From: Nitrospirota bacterium
GTDB taxonomy: Bacteria; Nitrospirota; Thermodesulfovibrionia; Thermodesulfovibrionales; JdFR-88
Length of the DNA stretch: 42,629 nucleotides
Assembly: GCA_021813405.1 (NCBI GenBank)
Contig: JAKAKS010000038.1
Location: forward strand, 1 to 42,629
Direction: 5' to 3'
The notes beneath the pieces were generated by a model. The model saw nothing but the letters and a program-made list of their open reading frames with translations. It searched no databases and was not told the DNA's origin. Position numbers and translations under genes: made by a program. Within the stretch, counting starts at the first letter, position 1. Every line of letters begins with the position of its first letter. This document shows positions 1,882-42,128 of the stretch, piece after piece.

Positions 1882-3065
1882 AACATCAGCTCCCAAAGGG
1901 TTTTCTGGTATCCACCGGTTCCGCGGGGATAAAGCGGCCGGGGCGCGCCGATATCGCTCTGATATATTCAGAGACTGATGCGGCCTGCGCCGGGGTGTTC
2001 ACGCAGAACAGGCTGAAGGGGAACCCGGTAAAGCTGGATATCGAGAGGGTCCGCTCCGGCAAGGGCAGGGCCATAGTGGCCAACAGCGGCAACGCCAACG
2101 TGGCCAACGGGCCGCGCGGGCTGGCCGACGCAAAGGAGATGGCACGCATACCGGCCAAAATACTGGGCGTGCCCGAAGAGCTGGTTTACGTGTGCTCCAC
2201 CGGGGTGATAGGCGCTGCCATGCCCATGGAAAAGATAAGGCCGGAGTTGAAATCTGTTGCCCTAAGGCCGGGGTCGGCCACGCTGGAAGACGCGGCGCAG
2301 GCCATCATGACCACGGACAAATTCCCGAAGATGAGTTCCAGGGTCATCACGGTGGGCGGAAAAAGGGCGCGCCTCACGGCAATAGCCAAGGGGGCCGGGA
2401 TGATACATCCAAACATGGCCACCATGCTCTGTTTCATAATAAGTGATATCAATATAGGCAGCGACCTGCTGGACACCGCCCTCAGGTCCGCCGCCGGGAA
2501 ATCTTTTAACAGGCTTACTGTGGACGGGGACACCTCCACAAGCGATACAATTCTGATAATGGCAAACGGACTGTGTGGCAACCCCGCCCTGAAAGCAGGT
2601 TCCCGCGAGTTTGAAATGTTCAGCGCCGCGCTGGACGCGATTACTCTGGAGCTGGCCAGGATGATAGCTTCGGACGGCGAAGGGGCCTCCAGGCTGATCG
2701 AGGTGGTGATAAAGGGCGCGGCTTCTGAGAAAGACGCCCTTACCGCAGCCTACGCCGTGGCTAAATCCCCCCTGGTGAAAACGGCGGTTTACGGCAACGA
2801 CGCCAACTGGGGCAGGATCATGGCCGCCATCGGGTATTCCGGGGCGCAGATGGAAGAAGACAAAGTTGATATCTGGATAGAGCGGCTCAAGATTGTAGGC
2901 AGAGGTGTTTCAAAAGGCAAGGACAAGGAGGCGGCCGCACTGATGCGCACCCAGAAGGCGATAACCATAACGGCGGACCTGCACCTGGGGGATGCCTCAG
3001 AAAGGGTGCTTACCTGCGACCTTACCGAGGAATACGTAAAGATAAACGCAGAGTACCGGACGTAA
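1878..3065 (+). CDS. argJ: Glutamate N-acetyltransferase / N-acetylglutamate synthase
   Basis: Bifunctional ornithine acetyltransferase that recycles the acetyl group from N-acetylornithine to glutamate. The 395-residue precursor is expected to self-cleave at the conserved KGAGMIHPNMATML motif, where Thr182 becomes the nucleophile of the beta subunit. Other family segments are the N-terminal GF-ST-G-AG-K region, IVANSGNANV, the STGVIG oxyanion-hole motif and the C-terminal GNDANWGRI block. It overlaps argC by four bases. Whether it is mono- or bifunctional cannot be told from sequence, and no argA is visible nearby. Confidence 0.96.
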   Translation: MKHQLPKGFLVSTGSAGIKRPGRADIALIYSETDAACAGVFTQNRLKGNPVKLDIERVRSGKGRAIVANSGNANVANGPRGLADAKEMARIPAKILGVPEELVYVCSTGVIGAAMPMEKIRPELKSVALRPGSATLEDAAQAIMTTDKFPKMSSRVITVGGKRARLTAIAKGAGMIHPNMATMLCFIISDINIGSDLLDTALRSAAGKSFNRLTVDGDTSTSDTILIMANGLCGNPALKAGSREFEMFSAALDAITLELARMIASDGEGASRLIEVVIKGAASEKDALTAAYAVAKSPLVKTAVYGNDANWGRIMAAIGYSGAQMEEDKVDIWIERLKIVGRGVSKGKDKEAAALMRTQKAITITADLHLGDASERVLTCDLTEEYVKINAEYRT

Positions 3066-3102
3066 TTCTCCGCATAGCCCTGAGCTCCTGAATGTTGATT
3101 GA

Positions 3103-3465
3103 ATGAGATACAGCTATTCGCGCACCAGCAGATACCGCATTCTCACATGCCCGTTTTGCGGCAGGGAGCCGGAAGCGCCCCATGCGTTAAAGATGAACTT
3201 CGGCGAGGCGCAGGGCGGAAGATGCGAGTGCGGGGCCATATACGTTTACGACGAGACGGGCAGGTCGCTTGGCGATGCCTTTATGGACGCTCTTGCACTT
3301 CTTTTTGACCAGGACTATGATGCCGCGCTGTCTGCCACCGAGGACGACTACGAGGAAGAGACCATTACCTTTGACAGGCGGATGGGCCGTTTTGTGGCGG
3401 ACTCCAAGCAGATGTCACACGTAAGCAAGTATTTGTTTTTGAGGAAGAAGGAAAAACCGGCCTGA
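3103..3465 (+). CDS. Small zinc-ribbon protein of unknown function
   Basis: A 120-residue acidic protein I cannot name. It carries CPFC at residues 16-19 and CEC at 41-43, a CxxC/CxC pair consistent with one zinc ribbon, followed by an acidic stretch (DDYEEE, about residues 81-87) and a basic end. It lies 37 bases after argJ on the same strand with no obvious Shine-Dalgarno, so it may be the last gene of the argCJ unit or have its own start. A longer overlapping frame from 3099 does not preserve the paired cysteines. No function is proposed. Confidence 0.7.
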   Translation: MRYSYSRTSRYRILTCPFCGREPEAPHALKMNFGEAQGGRCECGAIYVYDETGRSLGDAFMDALALLFDQDYDAALSATEDDYEEETITFDRRMGRFVADSKQMSHVSKYLFLRKKEKPA

Positions 3466-3477
3466 ACGCCAGCCGGT
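3451..3477 (-). terminator. Intrinsic terminator of the PAS histidine kinase (minus strand)
   Basis: Read on the minus strand, a 6-bp stem ACCGGC/GCCGGT (3472-3477 with 3456-3461, 10-nt loop) is followed by a run of five T (complement of 3451-3455). It sits about 50 bases past the kinase stop and overlaps the 3' end of the convergent zinc-ribbon gene. A second hairpin, GGCC-CCTT pairing with AAGG-GGCC, lies between it and the kinase stop. Confidence 0.5.
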
Positions 3478-3524
3478 AAAAGAGGCCCCTTTCATACGCA
3501 AGGAGGCCTGAAGAACCATTATTT

Positions 3525-5462
3525 TTAACCGGCGCCGGCCGGCAATACGAGATTTACCAGGGTCCCACGGCCCTCTTCGCTTAAAATCTCCACATCGCCT
3601 TTCATCTTCGCCATCATCTTTTTGACGATTACAAGCCCGAGGCCGGTCCCTTTTTGCTTTGTAGTTTGAAATGGCGTGAAGATTTTTCCAATCTGCCGCC
3701 GGGATATGCCCCGGCCGTTGTCTTCCATCATCAGAAGAATATTCTCTTTCAGCCTGAATGCGTGCAGGGTTATCCTGGGGGCCTTTACGCCTTCAAGCGC
3801 GTCGGCCGCGTTTGTAAACAGGTTTAAAAGCACCTGTTCCAGCGCGCGCTCGTCGCCAATTGCGCAGTCCGCGCCGGGGGCTATGTCCGCGGTTATTTTT
3901 ATGTTCCTGTCCTTGAAATCCTTCTCCATAAGTGCGATGGTCTTTTCGATATATGCGGGTAGGTGGATACTGTTTGCTTCCACATCCTCAAACATATTGA
4001 AGTTCTTAAAGGCCCCAAGCAGGAATTCTATCCTTGATATCTGGTTGATGGCCATATCCACGTACTCCTGCGCTTTTTTGGCCCCGCAGTCCGGCAATCT
4101 TTTCTTCAGGACGCCCAGGGCCAGTTTGGCGGTGTTCACGGGGTTGCTGATTTCGTGCCTGATGCCGCTGAATACATATCCGATATTGTCCATGAGATTG
4201 GCTGCCTGGGCGATCGATTCCAGCCGTTTTTTTTCGGTTACGTCCCTTGCTATGTGGATAAGGCCAGTTATCTTGTTCTGGCCGTCGTACCTGGGAACGG
4301 CCGAAATCTCCAGGAACCTGTTCAGATGCGGCTCGTAAATTTCCGAAACCCGCGGCTCTCCAGTTTCCAGGCAGGCGCAACTGGGGCAATCTCCTGGCGG
4401 GCATTTGCTGCCGTGAAAATATTTGTAGCATTTGGCCACGGATTTTCCCAAAACAGGAAGGCCCAGTATTTTACCGGCTGCCTTGTTTGCCCGTACTATA
4501 TTGAAATCAGTGTCGTGGATTGTGACCATGTCCGTTAGCTGGTTTATCGTGCTTTCCCAATCCTGTTCGGCCTGTGAAACACGCTCTTCCATTTCAACCC
4601 TGGCCGTAATGTCTTCCAGCATGCAGACCATTGCCGAAATATTTCCGGTTTCATCCTTCAGCGCAGAAACGGCAAGGTTCAAAACGGCCTCTGAGCCGTC
4701 TTTTTTCCTTTTCTTTACTCTCATCCCCGTTATATTCCCGCCGCCGGAAACCTTGGCCCGCATGGCTTCGAACTCTTCTTTTCCGGCGATAAGCGGGCAA
4801 CGCTTGCCCGTTACTTCATTTTCCCTCCATCCGAATATGCGTTCCGCCGACGGGTTCCACAGGCTTACTATTCCGTCCAGGTTAATTGCTATTATGGCCA
4901 GCGGGGATTCCGCCACAATGGAGCGGAGCGTCCCGGCGGTTTTCCTGAATGCCTCTTTTAATTTCCGCTGCTCCGTCACGTCTCTGGCCACTTCAATGCC
5001 GGCGATAATCCCGCCGGAAGAATCCCTTAAAGGAGATGCGGTAATCTCCAGATATCTTTTCTTCCCGGCCGCATTTACCTCTCTTTCTATCTGGTGGATG
5101 CCGCCGTCTTCGAAGGCCATCTCCAATTGGCAGCTTTCGCACACCCTGGGGCTATTTTCATATGCTTTGTAGCAGTGTTCTCCGGTATGCGCTCCAACGG
5201 AATCTATAGATGCCTGGTTCTGATAGATAATTTTATAACCGGTATCCTGGATGGTAACCTGGTTGCCAATGGCCTCAAGTATGGCCTCGAAATTTGCCCG
5301 CTCTCCCCCGGCTTGCCTCATGGCCTCTTTCAGCGCGGTTTTGTTTTTACCGGCAGGTGTAATTTTATTTGCGGTTTTTACAGGCTTTTTTACAGGCATA
5401 AGTTGATGTTCAGGCGGGAACAACCCTCCGGCTTCTGGATGATACAGTATAACAATGTCCAT
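3525..5462 (-). CDS. PAS-domain sensor histidine kinase, soluble
   Basis: A 645-residue kinase with no membrane span, so it probably senses a cytoplasmic signal. Three PAS domains occupy about residues 55-165, 175-290 and 300-412. A kinase core follows: phosphoacceptor His436 in the SGIRHEISNP motif, the N box around residues 547-555 (LFTNAADAL), the G1 box DNGRGI near 581-586 and G2 box GTGLGL near 605-610. PAS1 and PAS3 carry cysteine clusters (Cys97/108/111 and Cys345/354/359/362/364) that could bind metal or an Fe-S centre. The start is uncertain: the annotated ATG at 5462 has no clear ribosome-binding site and Met22 (5399) is an alternative. No response regulator is adjacent, so it is an orphan. 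It diverges from def. Confidence 0.9.
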   Translation of the reverse strand: MDIVILYHPEAGGLFPPEHQLMPVKKPVKTANKITPAGKNKTALKEAMRQAGGERANFEAILEAIGNQVTIQDTGYKIIYQNQASIDSVGAHTGEHCYKAYENSPRVCESCQLEMAFEDGGIHQIEREVNAAGKKRYLEITASPLRDSSGGIIAGIEVARDVTEQRKLKEAFRKTAGTLRSIVAESPLAIIAINLDGIVSLWNPSAERIFGWRENEVTGKRCPLIAGKEEFEAMRAKVSGGGNITGMRVKKRKKDGSEAVLNLAVSALKDETGNISAMVCMLEDITARVEMEERVSQAEQDWESTINQLTDMVTIHDTDFNIVRANKAAGKILGLPVLGKSVAKCYKYFHGSKCPPGDCPSCACLETGEPRVSEIYEPHLNRFLEISAVPRYDGQNKITGLIHIARDVTEKKRLESIAQAANLMDNIGYVFSGIRHEISNPVNTAKLALGVLKKRLPDCGAKKAQEYVDMAINQISRIEFLLGAFKNFNMFEDVEANSIHLPAYIEKTIALMEKDFKDRNIKITADIAPGADCAIGDERALEQVLLNLFTNAADALEGVKAPRITLHAFRLKENILLMMEDNGRGISRRQIGKIFTPFQTTKQKGTGLGLVIVKKMMAKMKGDVEILSEEGRGTLVNLVLPAGAG

Positions 5463-39085: not shown

Positions 39086-39115
39086 TTGACATCCCGTCCG
39101 GTTTTGGTTTACCTT
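39086..39115 (+). promoter_or_regulatory. Promoter of the NRAMP operon
   Basis: A consensus -35 TTGACA lies at 39086-39091. The best -10 is TACCTT at 39110-39115 with an 18-bp spacer; TTACCT with 17 is the alternative. Transcription would start near 39122, leaving a leader of about 258 nt before the transporter ATG, long enough to hold the structured element at 39151-39264. Confidence 0.45.
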
Positions 39116-39150
39116 TTAAATGCGGTTTGTTTCAAATCGTAATTTCATTA

Positions 39151-39276
39151 GTCAGGAGGTGGAGTTAATGGACGATGGCCCCAGTAGCCATAAACCGGCG
39201 GCCCTTATAAGGCCCGGACTGTCTGGACCAATGGGAAATGTTCATCGTCCTCACCGGAACTGACCCCCCCCTGACG
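39151..39276 (+). ncRNA. M-box-like (ykoK) magnesium riboswitch candidate
   Basis: The leader folds into stacked helices: GTCAG (39151-39155) with CTGAC (39260-39264); GGTG (39158-39161) with CACC (39252-39255); GGACGATG (39170-39177) with CATCGTCC (39243-39250), a perfect 8-bp stem; CCAT (39188-39191) with ATGG (39231-39234); and an apical hairpin from CCGG..GGCC to GGCC..CGG (39195-39217). The core CCATAAAC - stem - ACCAATGGG resembles the M-box core CCCAGAAA - stem - GCCAAUGGGU. A second CTGAC at 39271-39275 could compete for GTCAG. No terminator T-run follows; ACAGAG/CTCTGT (39328-39333 with 39355-39360) forms a stem near the start codon. The M-box assignment is from recalled consensus and is not certain. 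Confidence 0.52.
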
Positions 39277-39379
39277 CTTCCTCATTGCTTCAGCCTTAAG
39301 TCTTCAGCCTTCAAACAAACGCCGGTTACAGAGCAAGCGTTGCATCGTCTAAAACTCTGTATCGAGCAGGCGGGATAAA

Positions 39380-40648
39380 ATGAATTTTTTTGTAAGGCTT
39401 TATTACAAATATCGCCAGATAATCAAGGCGATCCAGCTGTTTTTGATCATTTCGGGGCCTGGAATTATCGTGATGATAGCCGACAATGACGCGGGCGGCA
39501 TAACTACCTATGCTGCAACGGGCGCAAAATACGGCTATAACCTGAACTGGTTGATAATTATTCTGATACCAGTCTGTTATTACATCCAGGAAATGACGGT
39601 ACGGCTTGGCGCTGTAACAAAGCGCGGCCACGCTGAAGCTATTTTTGCCGGGTTCGGCTCTTTCTGGGGCTGGTTTTCGCTGATGGACCTCTTAATTGTA
39701 AACTGGCTTACCATGATTACCGAGTTCATAGGCATGACTGCGGCCCTCAAGATATTTGGCGTCCCGCCATTTCTGACCGTAATTGTTTTGTGCGTGATAA
39801 TGGGGATCATGGTCTTAAATGGCAGCTACTGGACCTGGGAGAAGATAACTCTCCTTTTCTGTGCCATGAACCTCATATACATTCCAGGGGCGTTCATGGT
39901 CCATCCGTCGGTGGCGGCCATCATCCGGCAAGGCACCATTCCCAATCTGCCGGGAGGGCTCAGCAGCGATCTTTTCTTTTTCCTCATGGCAAATATCGGT
40001 ACTACCATTGCGCCATGGATGCTGTTCTTCCAGCAAAGCTCGGTTGTGGATAAATCGCTTAAGGAAAAAGACATCCCGTGGGGCAGGGTGGATACCTTTG
40101 TAGGCTCTCTTTTGACCGGCATTGTGGCCATCTTCATTATTATTGTTACCGGCACGGTTCTTAAAGGAGTAAATGTTGATGACGCGGCACAGGCATCAGT
40201 GATGCTGATGAAGACCAACAAGTATATTGGCACGTTCATGGCAATCGGGCTCTTTGACGCAGGTTTTCTGGGCGCTATTTGCATCTCGCTTGCAAGCTCC
40301 TGGGCATTTGGAGAAGTATTTGGTTGGGCGCACTCGCTTAATTACAAAATAAAGGAGGCCCCCTGGTTCTACGGCTTCTATTTCTTCCTGCTTTTGAGCG
40401 CAGGGGCCGTAGTGCTGATACCCAAAGCCCCGCTTGTATTGATTACTCTTTTTGTACAGGTGGTTGCGGTGACCCTGCTTCCGGCGGCGCTGGTATTTCT
40501 GATTCTGCTGTTAAACAATAAAAAGACAATGGGGGAGTACACCAATACGCTCTCCCAGAATATTATTAACATTACAATCGTGGTGCTTATAATTATCATT
40601 TCCAGCGCATACGGCGTAAGCACCCTTTTTCCGAATATGTTTAAATGA
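39380..40648 (+). CDS. NRAMP-family divalent metal transporter, probably Mg2+-type (NRMT-like)
   Basis: A 422-residue transporter with about 11 spans. In helix 1 the NRAMP motif DPGN is replaced by DAGG (37-40, within ADNDAGG); in helix 6 the motif MPH is replaced by APW (211-213, within NIGTTIAPW). Loss of the helix 6 methionine, which favours transition metals, and of the helix 1 Asn is what is known for NRAMP-related magnesium transporters. The flanking SGPGII and the GAKYGYNL segment confirm the family. A weak AGGCGGG (39368-39374) precedes the ATG. It heads a three-gene unit with a 58-residue membrane protein and an MgtE_N/CBS protein. Family is secure; metal choice is inferred. Confidence 0.88.
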   Translation: MNFFVRLYYKYRQIIKAIQLFLIISGPGIIVMIADNDAGGITTYAATGAKYGYNLNWLIIILIPVCYYIQEMTVRLGAVTKRGHAEAIFAGFGSFWGWFSLMDLLIVNWLTMITEFIGMTAALKIFGVPPFLTVIVLCVIMGIMVLNGSYWTWEKITLLFCAMNLIYIPGAFMVHPSVAAIIRQGTIPNLPGGLSSDLFFFLMANIGTTIAPWMLFFQQSSVVDKSLKEKDIPWGRVDTFVGSLLTGIVAIFIIIVTGTVLKGVNVDDAAQASVMLMKTNKYIGTFMAIGLFDAGFLGAICISLASSWAFGEVFGWAHSLNYKIKEAPWFYGFYFFLLLSAGAVVLIPKAPLVLITLFVQVVAVTLLPAALVFLILLLNNKKTMGEYTNTLSQNIINITIVVLIIIISSAYGVSTLFPNMFK

Positions 40649-40660
40649 GGGAGGCGGGCC

Positions 40661-40837
40661 ATGATCAGAAATTTTCTGAGGCATAATTATGCCAAGATCC
40701 GCGAGATCAATAAAAAATATGCAACCCCTAATGTGGAGATGTCAGCCGGGGTGAAGTTCTCGCTTTTGGTGTTAAGGCTCTATCTTATTTTTTTGGTAGC
40801 CCTTTTGCTTTATAAATTCATAACCCTGGTGCGTTAA
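40661..40837 (+). CDS. 58-residue single-span membrane protein in the NRAMP operon
   Basis: A short gene. The product starts MIRNFLRHNYAKIREINKKY, a basic amphipathic N-terminal half of about 30 residues, followed by one hydrophobic span at about residues 33-51 (FSLLVLRLYLIFLVALLLY) and a KFITLVR end. The positive N terminus suggests it stays inside. GGGAGG (40649-40655 region) precedes the ATG, and another GGGAGG (40838-40843) follows the stop for the next gene, so it is bracketed by good ribosome-binding sites and is 12 bases from the transporter. It may be a small subunit linking the transporter to the cytoplasmic sensor. No family name is known to me. Confidence 0.8.
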   Translation: MIRNFLRHNYAKIREINKKYATPNVEMSAGVKFSLLVLRLYLIFLVALLLYKFITLVR

Positions 40838-40850
40838 GGGAGGCGCGGTC

Positions 40851-42128
40851 ATGCACACCACATTGGAAAAGCCCCAGGAAATTGGCGGGGCCGTTTATTT
40901 CCTGAGCGATATGATCGGCTTCAAGGTATATAACCGCGGCAAAAAGACAGGTAAACTGCGGGACCTGGCGATACGTGAGCATGAAAAGCTACCTACGGTT
41001 ACTCATTTGATTATTATGCGCCCGTTTGGTCATAAGCAGCTGCTTCTGCCATGGGACGAGGTGGCGGGAGTTGCACCTGGCAGGATAGACCTGGATCTGG
41101 ACTCACTGGAAAAATACGAAGGGGAGCCCCTGGAATCCCAAGTGCTTTTGAATGATCATATCCTGGACAAAAAGGTCCTTGATATGGACGACAATGAAAT
41201 AGATGTGGTCTATGATGTTAAGCTTGTCTTAAGAAACAGGGTTCTCTACGTTACCGATGTGGATTTCAGCCGTTACGCGCTGTTTAAAAGACTTGGGCTG
41301 AAACCGTTGATGAAGCTGATCTTCGGGGATTCCGGCCCTATGAAAAAAGAGACCCTCTCATGGTCCTACGTGCAGCCCTTGCCGGAAGACATCGGCAGGT
41401 TCAGGGGGAACGTAAAACTGAAGGTGCTTAAAGACAAGCTTCCTGAAATTCATCCCGTGGACCTGGCAGATATCCTTGAGGAACTGAACACAGAACAGCG
41501 GCTTGCCATCTTTAACGAACTTGATACGGAGCATGCCTCTGATACCCTGGAAGAAATCGAACCCCGTGTGCAGAGGGAGATCATATCCTCTATAAAGAAG
41601 GAGAGGGCCGCCGAGCTTATAAATGATATGACGCCGGCCCAGGCGGCCGACATTCTTGCCATTTTGCCTGCGGATGAGGCTGATGAGATACTGAAGCTCA
41701 TCGACAAGGAGGAAGCCCAGAAGATAGAGAACATGCTTGAAAAGCAGGAGGAAAAGATACTCAATTTTGCGACCTCCGACTTTATAAAATTGTCTCCCGA
41801 TACACAGGTGAGCCAGGTCCTTTTGCAGTTCCGCGAGATAGCAAAGGACAAAGAAGAACTCCTCTACATTTACGTGGTGGGCGAAAATGACACCCTGCTG
41901 GGCGTGGCAGGGCTGAAGGAGATATTGCAGGCCAATTTATCAAGCAGGCTGAAAGACATCATGACTACCAGCGTTATAAGCCTGAACCCCGAAAATACCC
42001 TTCTGGAGGCAGCCGGGATGTTTTCGCGCTACAGCTTCCGGTCCATACCGATAACGGGAGAGGGGGATGTAATCCTTGGCATCATCCCTTACCGGGATAT
42101 TATGAAATTGAAGCACAGGTTTGTTTAA
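40851..42128 (+). CDS. PRC-barrel / MgtE_N / CBS-pair soluble protein
   Basis: A 425-residue cytoplasmic protein. Two PRC-barrel-like units occupy about residues 14-90 and 98-150, an MgtE intracellular N domain of helical repeats about 190-305 (HPVDLADILEELNTEQRLA, PAQAADILAILPADEADEI), and two CBS motifs about 306-365 and 368-425. MgtE channels use exactly the N domain plus CBS to sense Mg2+ and close the pore, but the transmembrane domain is absent here. Sitting in an operon with an NRAMP-type carrier, it is best read as a Mg2+- or nucleotide-responsive regulatory subunit for that carrier. GGGAGG lies 7 bases before the ATG. Confidence 0.87.
   Translation: MHTTLEKPQEIGGAVYFLSDMIGFKVYNRGKKTGKLRDLAIREHEKLPTVTHLIIMRPFGHKQLLLPWDEVAGVAPGRIDLDLDSLEKYEGEPLESQVLLNDHILDKKVLDMDDNEIDVVYDVKLVLRNRVLYVTDVDFSRYALFKRLGLKPLMKLIFGDSGPMKKETLSWSYVQPLPEDIGRFRGNVKLKVLKDKLPEIHPVDLADILEELNTEQRLAIFNELDTEHASDTLEEIEPRVQREIISSIKKERAAELINDMTPAQAADILAILPADEADEILKLIDKEEAQKIENMLEKQEEKILNFATSDFIKLSPDTQVSQVLLQFREIAKDKEELLYIYVVGENDTLLGVAGLKEILQANLSSRLKDIMTTSVISLNPENTLLEAAGMFSRYSFRSIPITGEGDVILGIIPYRDIMKLKHRFV

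Follow-up and report, generated by a model that had tools for sequence, protein, structure and literature searches.

Organisation of the nrmT locus

The locus examined here forms part of a 42,629-nucleotide stretch of DNA, referred to as the window, and all of its features lie on the forward strand. Three genes follow one another: nrmT (39380-40648), encoding a 422-residue Nramp-related Mg2+ transporter (NRMT) assigned by Pfam and by its match to EleNRMT; a gene for a 58-residue membrane protein, hereafter the 58-mer (40661-40837), recognised from homologous loci, a 45-sequence alignment and AlphaFold2 modelling; and a gene for a 425-residue, MgtE-like soluble partner lacking a pore domain (40851-42128), assigned by Pfam, AlphaFold2 and Foldseek. 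The intergenic gaps are exactly 12 and 13 bases, confirming the arrangement described in an earlier, sequence-only reading of this DNA.

Upstream of the operon, a terminator-like hairpin overlaps the end of a dinB-type polymerase gene whose last position is 39076, indicating that the operon probably starts at a promoter of its own. The candidate is a sigma-70-type element at 39086-39115, comprising TTGACA (39086-39091), an 18 bp spacer and TACCTT (39110-39115). The promoter had been proposed from the window alone, where it is weak and is missed by a consensus promoter scan, but it is kept as TTGACA...TATACT in relatives L006, L011, L012 and L013. Between promoter and nrmT lies a leader containing a conserved hairpin (39153-39257), a short upstream ORF (uORF; putative leader peptide MDDGPSSHKPAALIRPGLSGPMGNVHRPHRN, 39168-39263) and a C-rich, G-poor stretch resembling a rut site over the end of the uORF (39243-39320).

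Identity of the carrier

The 422-residue protein belongs to the Pfam family Nramp (E=2.6e-75), and its best match in the PDB is EleNRMT (7qia, 229.6 bits), against only 71.6 bits for the best MntH. When aligned to EleNRMT, albeit a remote homolog, the carrier shows the ion-site residues D37xxG40 and T208xxA211, which correspond to the DxxG and TxxA/T signature given for NRMT proteins by Ramanadane et al. (2022; PMC8806188). The pair of helix-6 histidines associated with proton coupling is lost, being replaced by W213 and Q218, while E115 aligns with the helix-3 glutamate and the TM10 glutamine is kept as Q360. The two proteins share DxxG/TxxA, a tryptophan in place of the first TM6 histidine, the TM3 glutamate and the TM10 glutamine. 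An MgtE N-domain-like neighbour, which is common though not universal in the NRMT family, is also present (40851-42128). These features uphold the earlier proposal of a magnesium-type Nramp carrier and argue strongly, at the level of sequence, for Mg2+ as the predicted substrate.

The complement of other Mg2+ importers in the window genome, which is marked 100% complete, was also examined. Searches returned no match to CorA or to the MgtE pore domain (PF01769), and nothing above the curated cut-off for MgtA, indicating that nrmT probably encodes the main dedicated Mg2+ importer of this organism. MgtA is present in two other genomes of the same Nitrospirota family. Besides nrmT, the window genome encodes two further Nramp paralogs, neither of which has a 58-mer at its locus.

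The MgtE-like partner

Pfam analysis of the 425-residue protein identified a PRC-barrel domain (residues 16-79; 40896-41087), an MgtE_N superhelical domain (residues 200-300; 41448-41750) and a CBS domain pair (about residues 309-420; 41775-42110), the latter two also being apparent in alignment with MgtE and the CBS pair in the AlphaFold2 model, whereas the pore domain PF01769 is absent. The C-terminal 230 residues are related in sequence to the cytosolic domains of MgtE (2yvy, E=4.6e-23), and Foldseek matches to the predicted structure are likewise to the MgtE cytosolic domain. A stand-alone, soluble MgtE-type protein, as had been proposed, is supported. Compared with the MgtE channel (2yvy, 2oux), the sequence relation and predicted fold extend over the N domain and CBS pair, but the partner has neither pore nor plug helix, carries an additional N-terminal PRC-barrel region and has several Mg2+-site residues replaced.

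Using the Mg2+-site residues of Thermus thermophilus MgtE as named in PMC5882242 for reference, the partner retains D95 and D247 and has D in place of E59, whereas D91, D226 and D250 are replaced; the plug residues E258 and D259 (Mg2/Mg3) fall past the aligned end, near the C-terminus of the partner. By site, the residues of Mg6 and Mg7 are kept (with one D for E), Mg4 is half kept and Mg5 is lost. Since several of the site residues are missing, it appears doubtful from the sequence that the partner would, as had been suggested, sense Mg2+ in the manner of MgtE.

The 58-residue membrane protein

The 58-mer comprises an amphipathic helix (residues 2-19), a linker with the motif PxxEMS and a transmembrane helix (residues 29-57), and in its AlphaFold2 model (pLDDT 91) a helix at the N-terminus is likewise joined through a linker to a single long hydrophobic helix. 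The consensus of 45 aligned sequences approximates to KIREINxKYxxPxIEMSxxVxxSLLxLRxYLxxLVxLLxYKFITLL, with five residues invariant, and homologs are 55-71 residues long except for one copy clipped by a contig end. No Pfam or NCBIfam model matches the protein, so that many genomes probably leave it without annotation or list it under a wrong name.

Conservation of the three-gene cassette

Linkage of the three genes was examined in a single scan of 84,980 species genomes, which yielded at least 550 loci coding for relatives; the analysis retained the best 80, at 69-99% identity across the matched part. All 80 of these best loci have a homolog of the 58-mer immediately after the carrier, and the gene for the PRC-MgtE_N-CBS protein comes next in all 77 that could be assessed, the remaining three being contig ends. 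The conserved co-occurrence that should accompany a functional unit is thus observed for the three genes, and the loci that carry them are drawn from many phyla. The loci are mostly from metagenome bins, and faulty binning may therefore account for unexpected phylum assignments of individual loci (CPR, archaea). In one leader-less relative (G013), a CDF-type cation efflux gene lies directly before nrmT (L036:7634-8524).

A second NRMT clade occurs in the same order (L014-L033). Its carriers are approximately 36% identical to the window type and, where visible, have a 420-residue MgtE-like gene directly upstream, and the 58-mer is absent from all 20 loci. The two carrier types are separated in a phylogenetic tree, albeit with low support for the window-type node (0.60).

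The association of an NrmT carrier with an MgtE-like protein is not new. Shin et al. (2014; PMC4072509) described NrmT together with a neighbouring protein that resembles the MgtE N domain, in many cases accompanied by an M-box, so that the earlier view of the three-part combination as undescribed does not stand for the pair; only the 58-mer and the short peptide-coding leader are absent from that account. Neither the 58-mer nor the window-type leader was found described in the literature, which was searched without most subscription journals. The published operons, including that of Clostridium acetobutylicum, resemble the window in having an Nramp-related Mg2+ carrier beside an MgtE N-domain-like gene and often a Mg2+-responsive RNA upstream. 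They differ in that the 58-mer separates the two genes in every window-type relative, in the order of carrier, 58-mer and MgtE-like gene in the window, and in having a leader of another kind than the M-box; in the tree, which covered the second NRMT type found in this order, the window carrier forms a branch of its own. Shin et al. (2014) left as questions the role of the MgtE-like fragment and the features that separate Mg2+ from Mn2+ carriers, and the constant presence of the 58-mer (80 of the best 80 of at least 550 loci) makes the former testable.

A putative peptide-coding leader upstream of nrmT

The 5' arm of the leader hairpin contains the uORF Shine-Dalgarno sequence (AGGAGGTGG, 39154-39162) and start codon, a region that pairs with sequence further downstream. 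The window peptide begins MDDGPSSH, and the N-terminus M-D-[GD]-[GD]-P-S-S-H is kept in most of the family. A covariance model (R1) built from five relatives detected exactly one copy per genome, upstream of nrmT, in all eight carrier-bearing genomes of the family, and a search with the same model for further copies that might define a regulon in these genomes returned none. A weak match (E=0.0036) was obtained in a genome of another family (L052; G016:C4:1768-1860, reverse strand). In the hairpin, 90% of pair cells are standard, versus 32-47% when the alignment is slid, and none of 500 shuffles performed as well. Single-sequence folding of the window leader, on the other hand, was no better than that of shuffled sequences (z = -0.43), so that the structured leader claimed previously is unremarkable as a single sequence but real by comparison. 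The C/G ratio of 3.2 across 39243-39320 places this stretch at the 99.98th percentile of the locus, and it may serve as a Rho loading site. Codon-position bias that would indicate translation of the uORF is weak and suggestive only, the third-position bias being modest.

The leader was also compared with known RNA families. Identity with the M-box was rejected, there being no match to RF00380 in the window or in a sensitive search of the leader, and no M-box was found in the window genome and 60 relatives; other Rfam families were similarly rejected for lack of a match. With respect to range, the leader is present in one Nitrospirota family, with a related uORF in Desulfuromonadia, and most other loci show neither. 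At L039 a 305-residue ORF (2632-3549), which resembles an outer-membrane protein but has no Pfam match, is located between leader and nrmT.

The picture is different in relatives that do have an M-box. In a search of 50 relatives' genomes, an M-box was found in six, all of which have one directly upstream of nrmT, and it is visible at this position in the Desulfuromonadia leaders that were inspected. Window-type nrmT is present in nine of 244 sampled Desulfuromonadia genomes. In these bacteria a short ORF beginning M-[DE]-S-H, with the ribosome site GGTGGTGG, comes after the M-box and the M-box terminator, and at L072 this uORF is present though the genome search found no M-box. A pattern search of 12 genomes for the Desulfuromonadia uORF elsewhere recovered only copies at nrmT, and not all of those, indicating that the search is insensitive. 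In both leader groups the ORF is overlapped or followed by a C-rich, G-poor stretch, which in most leaders is among the most extreme of its locus. No description of a uORF after an M-box was found in the literature, again searched without most subscription journals. As one transporter is preceded by conserved uORF leaders that either have or lack an M-box, Mg2+ sensing by RNA can here be set against sensing by a leader peptide.

Expression of Mg2+ genes in Salmonella is controlled by leader peptides in the case of mgtL and corL. Similar control has been described for the Salmonella gene mgtQ (PMC8092293), and a uORF (uORF2) is associated with an M-box in Mycobacterium tuberculosis (PMC12810186). 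The window leader resembles these in having a short ORF with an early acidic residue and proline, a strong Shine-Dalgarno sequence, a hairpin over the start and a C-rich stretch downstream. It differs in that the peptide sequence and the RNA are unrelated to theirs, and a response to Mg2+ in the present case would be by analogy. At L109 a reading frame of ten residues upstream of nrmT (start -374), MDDPYARYLI, contains a proline and has acidic residues near its beginning, and is reminiscent of MgtL-type peptides.

The window leader is thus interpreted, with weak to moderate confidence as to mechanism and ligand, as a Mg2+ attenuator of the leader-peptide/Rho type. It could alternatively be a new riboswitch that senses Mg2+ directly, the apparent uORF being untranslated or not needed. 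In favour of this, the hairpin arms and a GGCCC..GTAGYCAT stretch are conserved at the level of nucleotides, and the pair counts exceed those of all shuffles. Against it, the conserved portion is built around a near-perfect Shine-Dalgarno sequence and ATG, the acidic, proline and histidine residues of the uORF are kept via synonymous changes, and true M-boxes are followed by an ORF of similar M[DE]SH type, even if the third-position bias is modest; the riboswitch is regarded as somewhat unlikely.

Proposed function of the operon

It seems likely that the locus is a dedicated Mg2+ import operon comprising an NRMT carrier, a 58-mer tether, an MgtE-type gate and control by leader-peptide/Rho attenuation. 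NrmT would act as a proton-uncoupled NRMT carrier, admitting hydrated Mg2+, and probably some Mn2+, down the electrical gradient. The 58-mer, as a single-pass and fixed partner of the window-type NRMT subclade, would probably connect the carrier with the soluble PRC-MgtE_N-CBS protein, through an amphipathic helix on the cytosolic side and the conserved linker. The MgtE-like protein, in turn, is probably a detachable cytosolic gate or inhibitor that limits the carrier, and would use ligands of the CBS domains (nucleotide and/or Mg2+), as in MgtE. In the leader, the uORF Shine-Dalgarno sequence and start, held in a hairpin and followed by C-rich, G-poor RNA, would constitute an attenuator that opens the operon at low Mg2+. 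Moderate confidence is attached to the formation of a complex by the three proteins, and to gating within it. The scheme is favoured by the NRMT signature and EleNRMT match, the lack of matches to other Mg2+ importers in the window genome, the M-boxes before this carrier in relatives, the conserved leader, the constant gene linkage with no 58-mer in the second NRMT clade, and the MgtE cytosolic fold of the partner. Weighing against it are the missing MgtE Mg2+-site residues, the weak codon-position bias of the uORF, the narrow range of the leader, the metagenomic origin of most loci and the Mn2+ preference of one published NrmT, discussed next.

Two other interpretations of the proteins were considered. 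The carrier could mainly import Mn2+ (or Fe2+), with the MgtE-like protein and the 58-mer responding to that metal. The NrmT of A. capsulatum, which is linked to an MgtE fragment, indeed served mainly Mn2+, rescue with Mn2+ being far better than with Mg2+ and the adjacent fragment being of no help for Mg2+ (PMC4072509), and EleNRMT carries Mn2+ also (PMC8806188). Yet M-box riboswitches lie directly upstream of the same cassette in relatives, the window genome is without the other usual Mg2+ importers, and its two additional Nramp paralogs could serve Mn2+ or Fe2+, which together render a Mn2+ or Fe2+ importer distinctly unlikely. The 58-mer, for its part, might be an assembly or quality-control factor, or act on another membrane protein, as opposed to being a subunit of the transporter; in B. 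subtilis, the two NrmT proteins tested, from C. acetobutylicum and A. capsulatum, were functional with no MgtE partner present (PMC4072509), which is compatible with such a role. This is nevertheless considered unlikely given that the gene is located directly 3' of nrmT in every one of the 80 loci kept as the best of at least 550, and given the narrow size range (contig-clipped copy aside) and five invariant residues of the protein.

If Mg2+ import by a tethered and gated carrier is correct, the operon may, as a tentative proposal, represent a class of bacterial Mg2+ importer built of three components: the NRMT carrier, a 58-residue tether that is obligatory, and an MgtE-type gate that is detached. 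Its switch would be an undescribed family of leader peptides replacing or following the M-box, and in some lineages it would work with a co-regulated OprB-type outer-membrane porin.

Genes adjoining nrmT

An OprB-family porin gene (PF04966) adjoins nrmT in approximately ten loci from several groups, namely L073 (7790-7957 and the following ORF), L035 (6015-7445), L054, L076, L088, L089, L090, L102, L126 and L131; a search of the window genome for OprB porins gave no match. In a Geobacteraceae bin the OprB gene has an M-box of its own, and is thus a candidate Mg2+-regulated outer-membrane porin.
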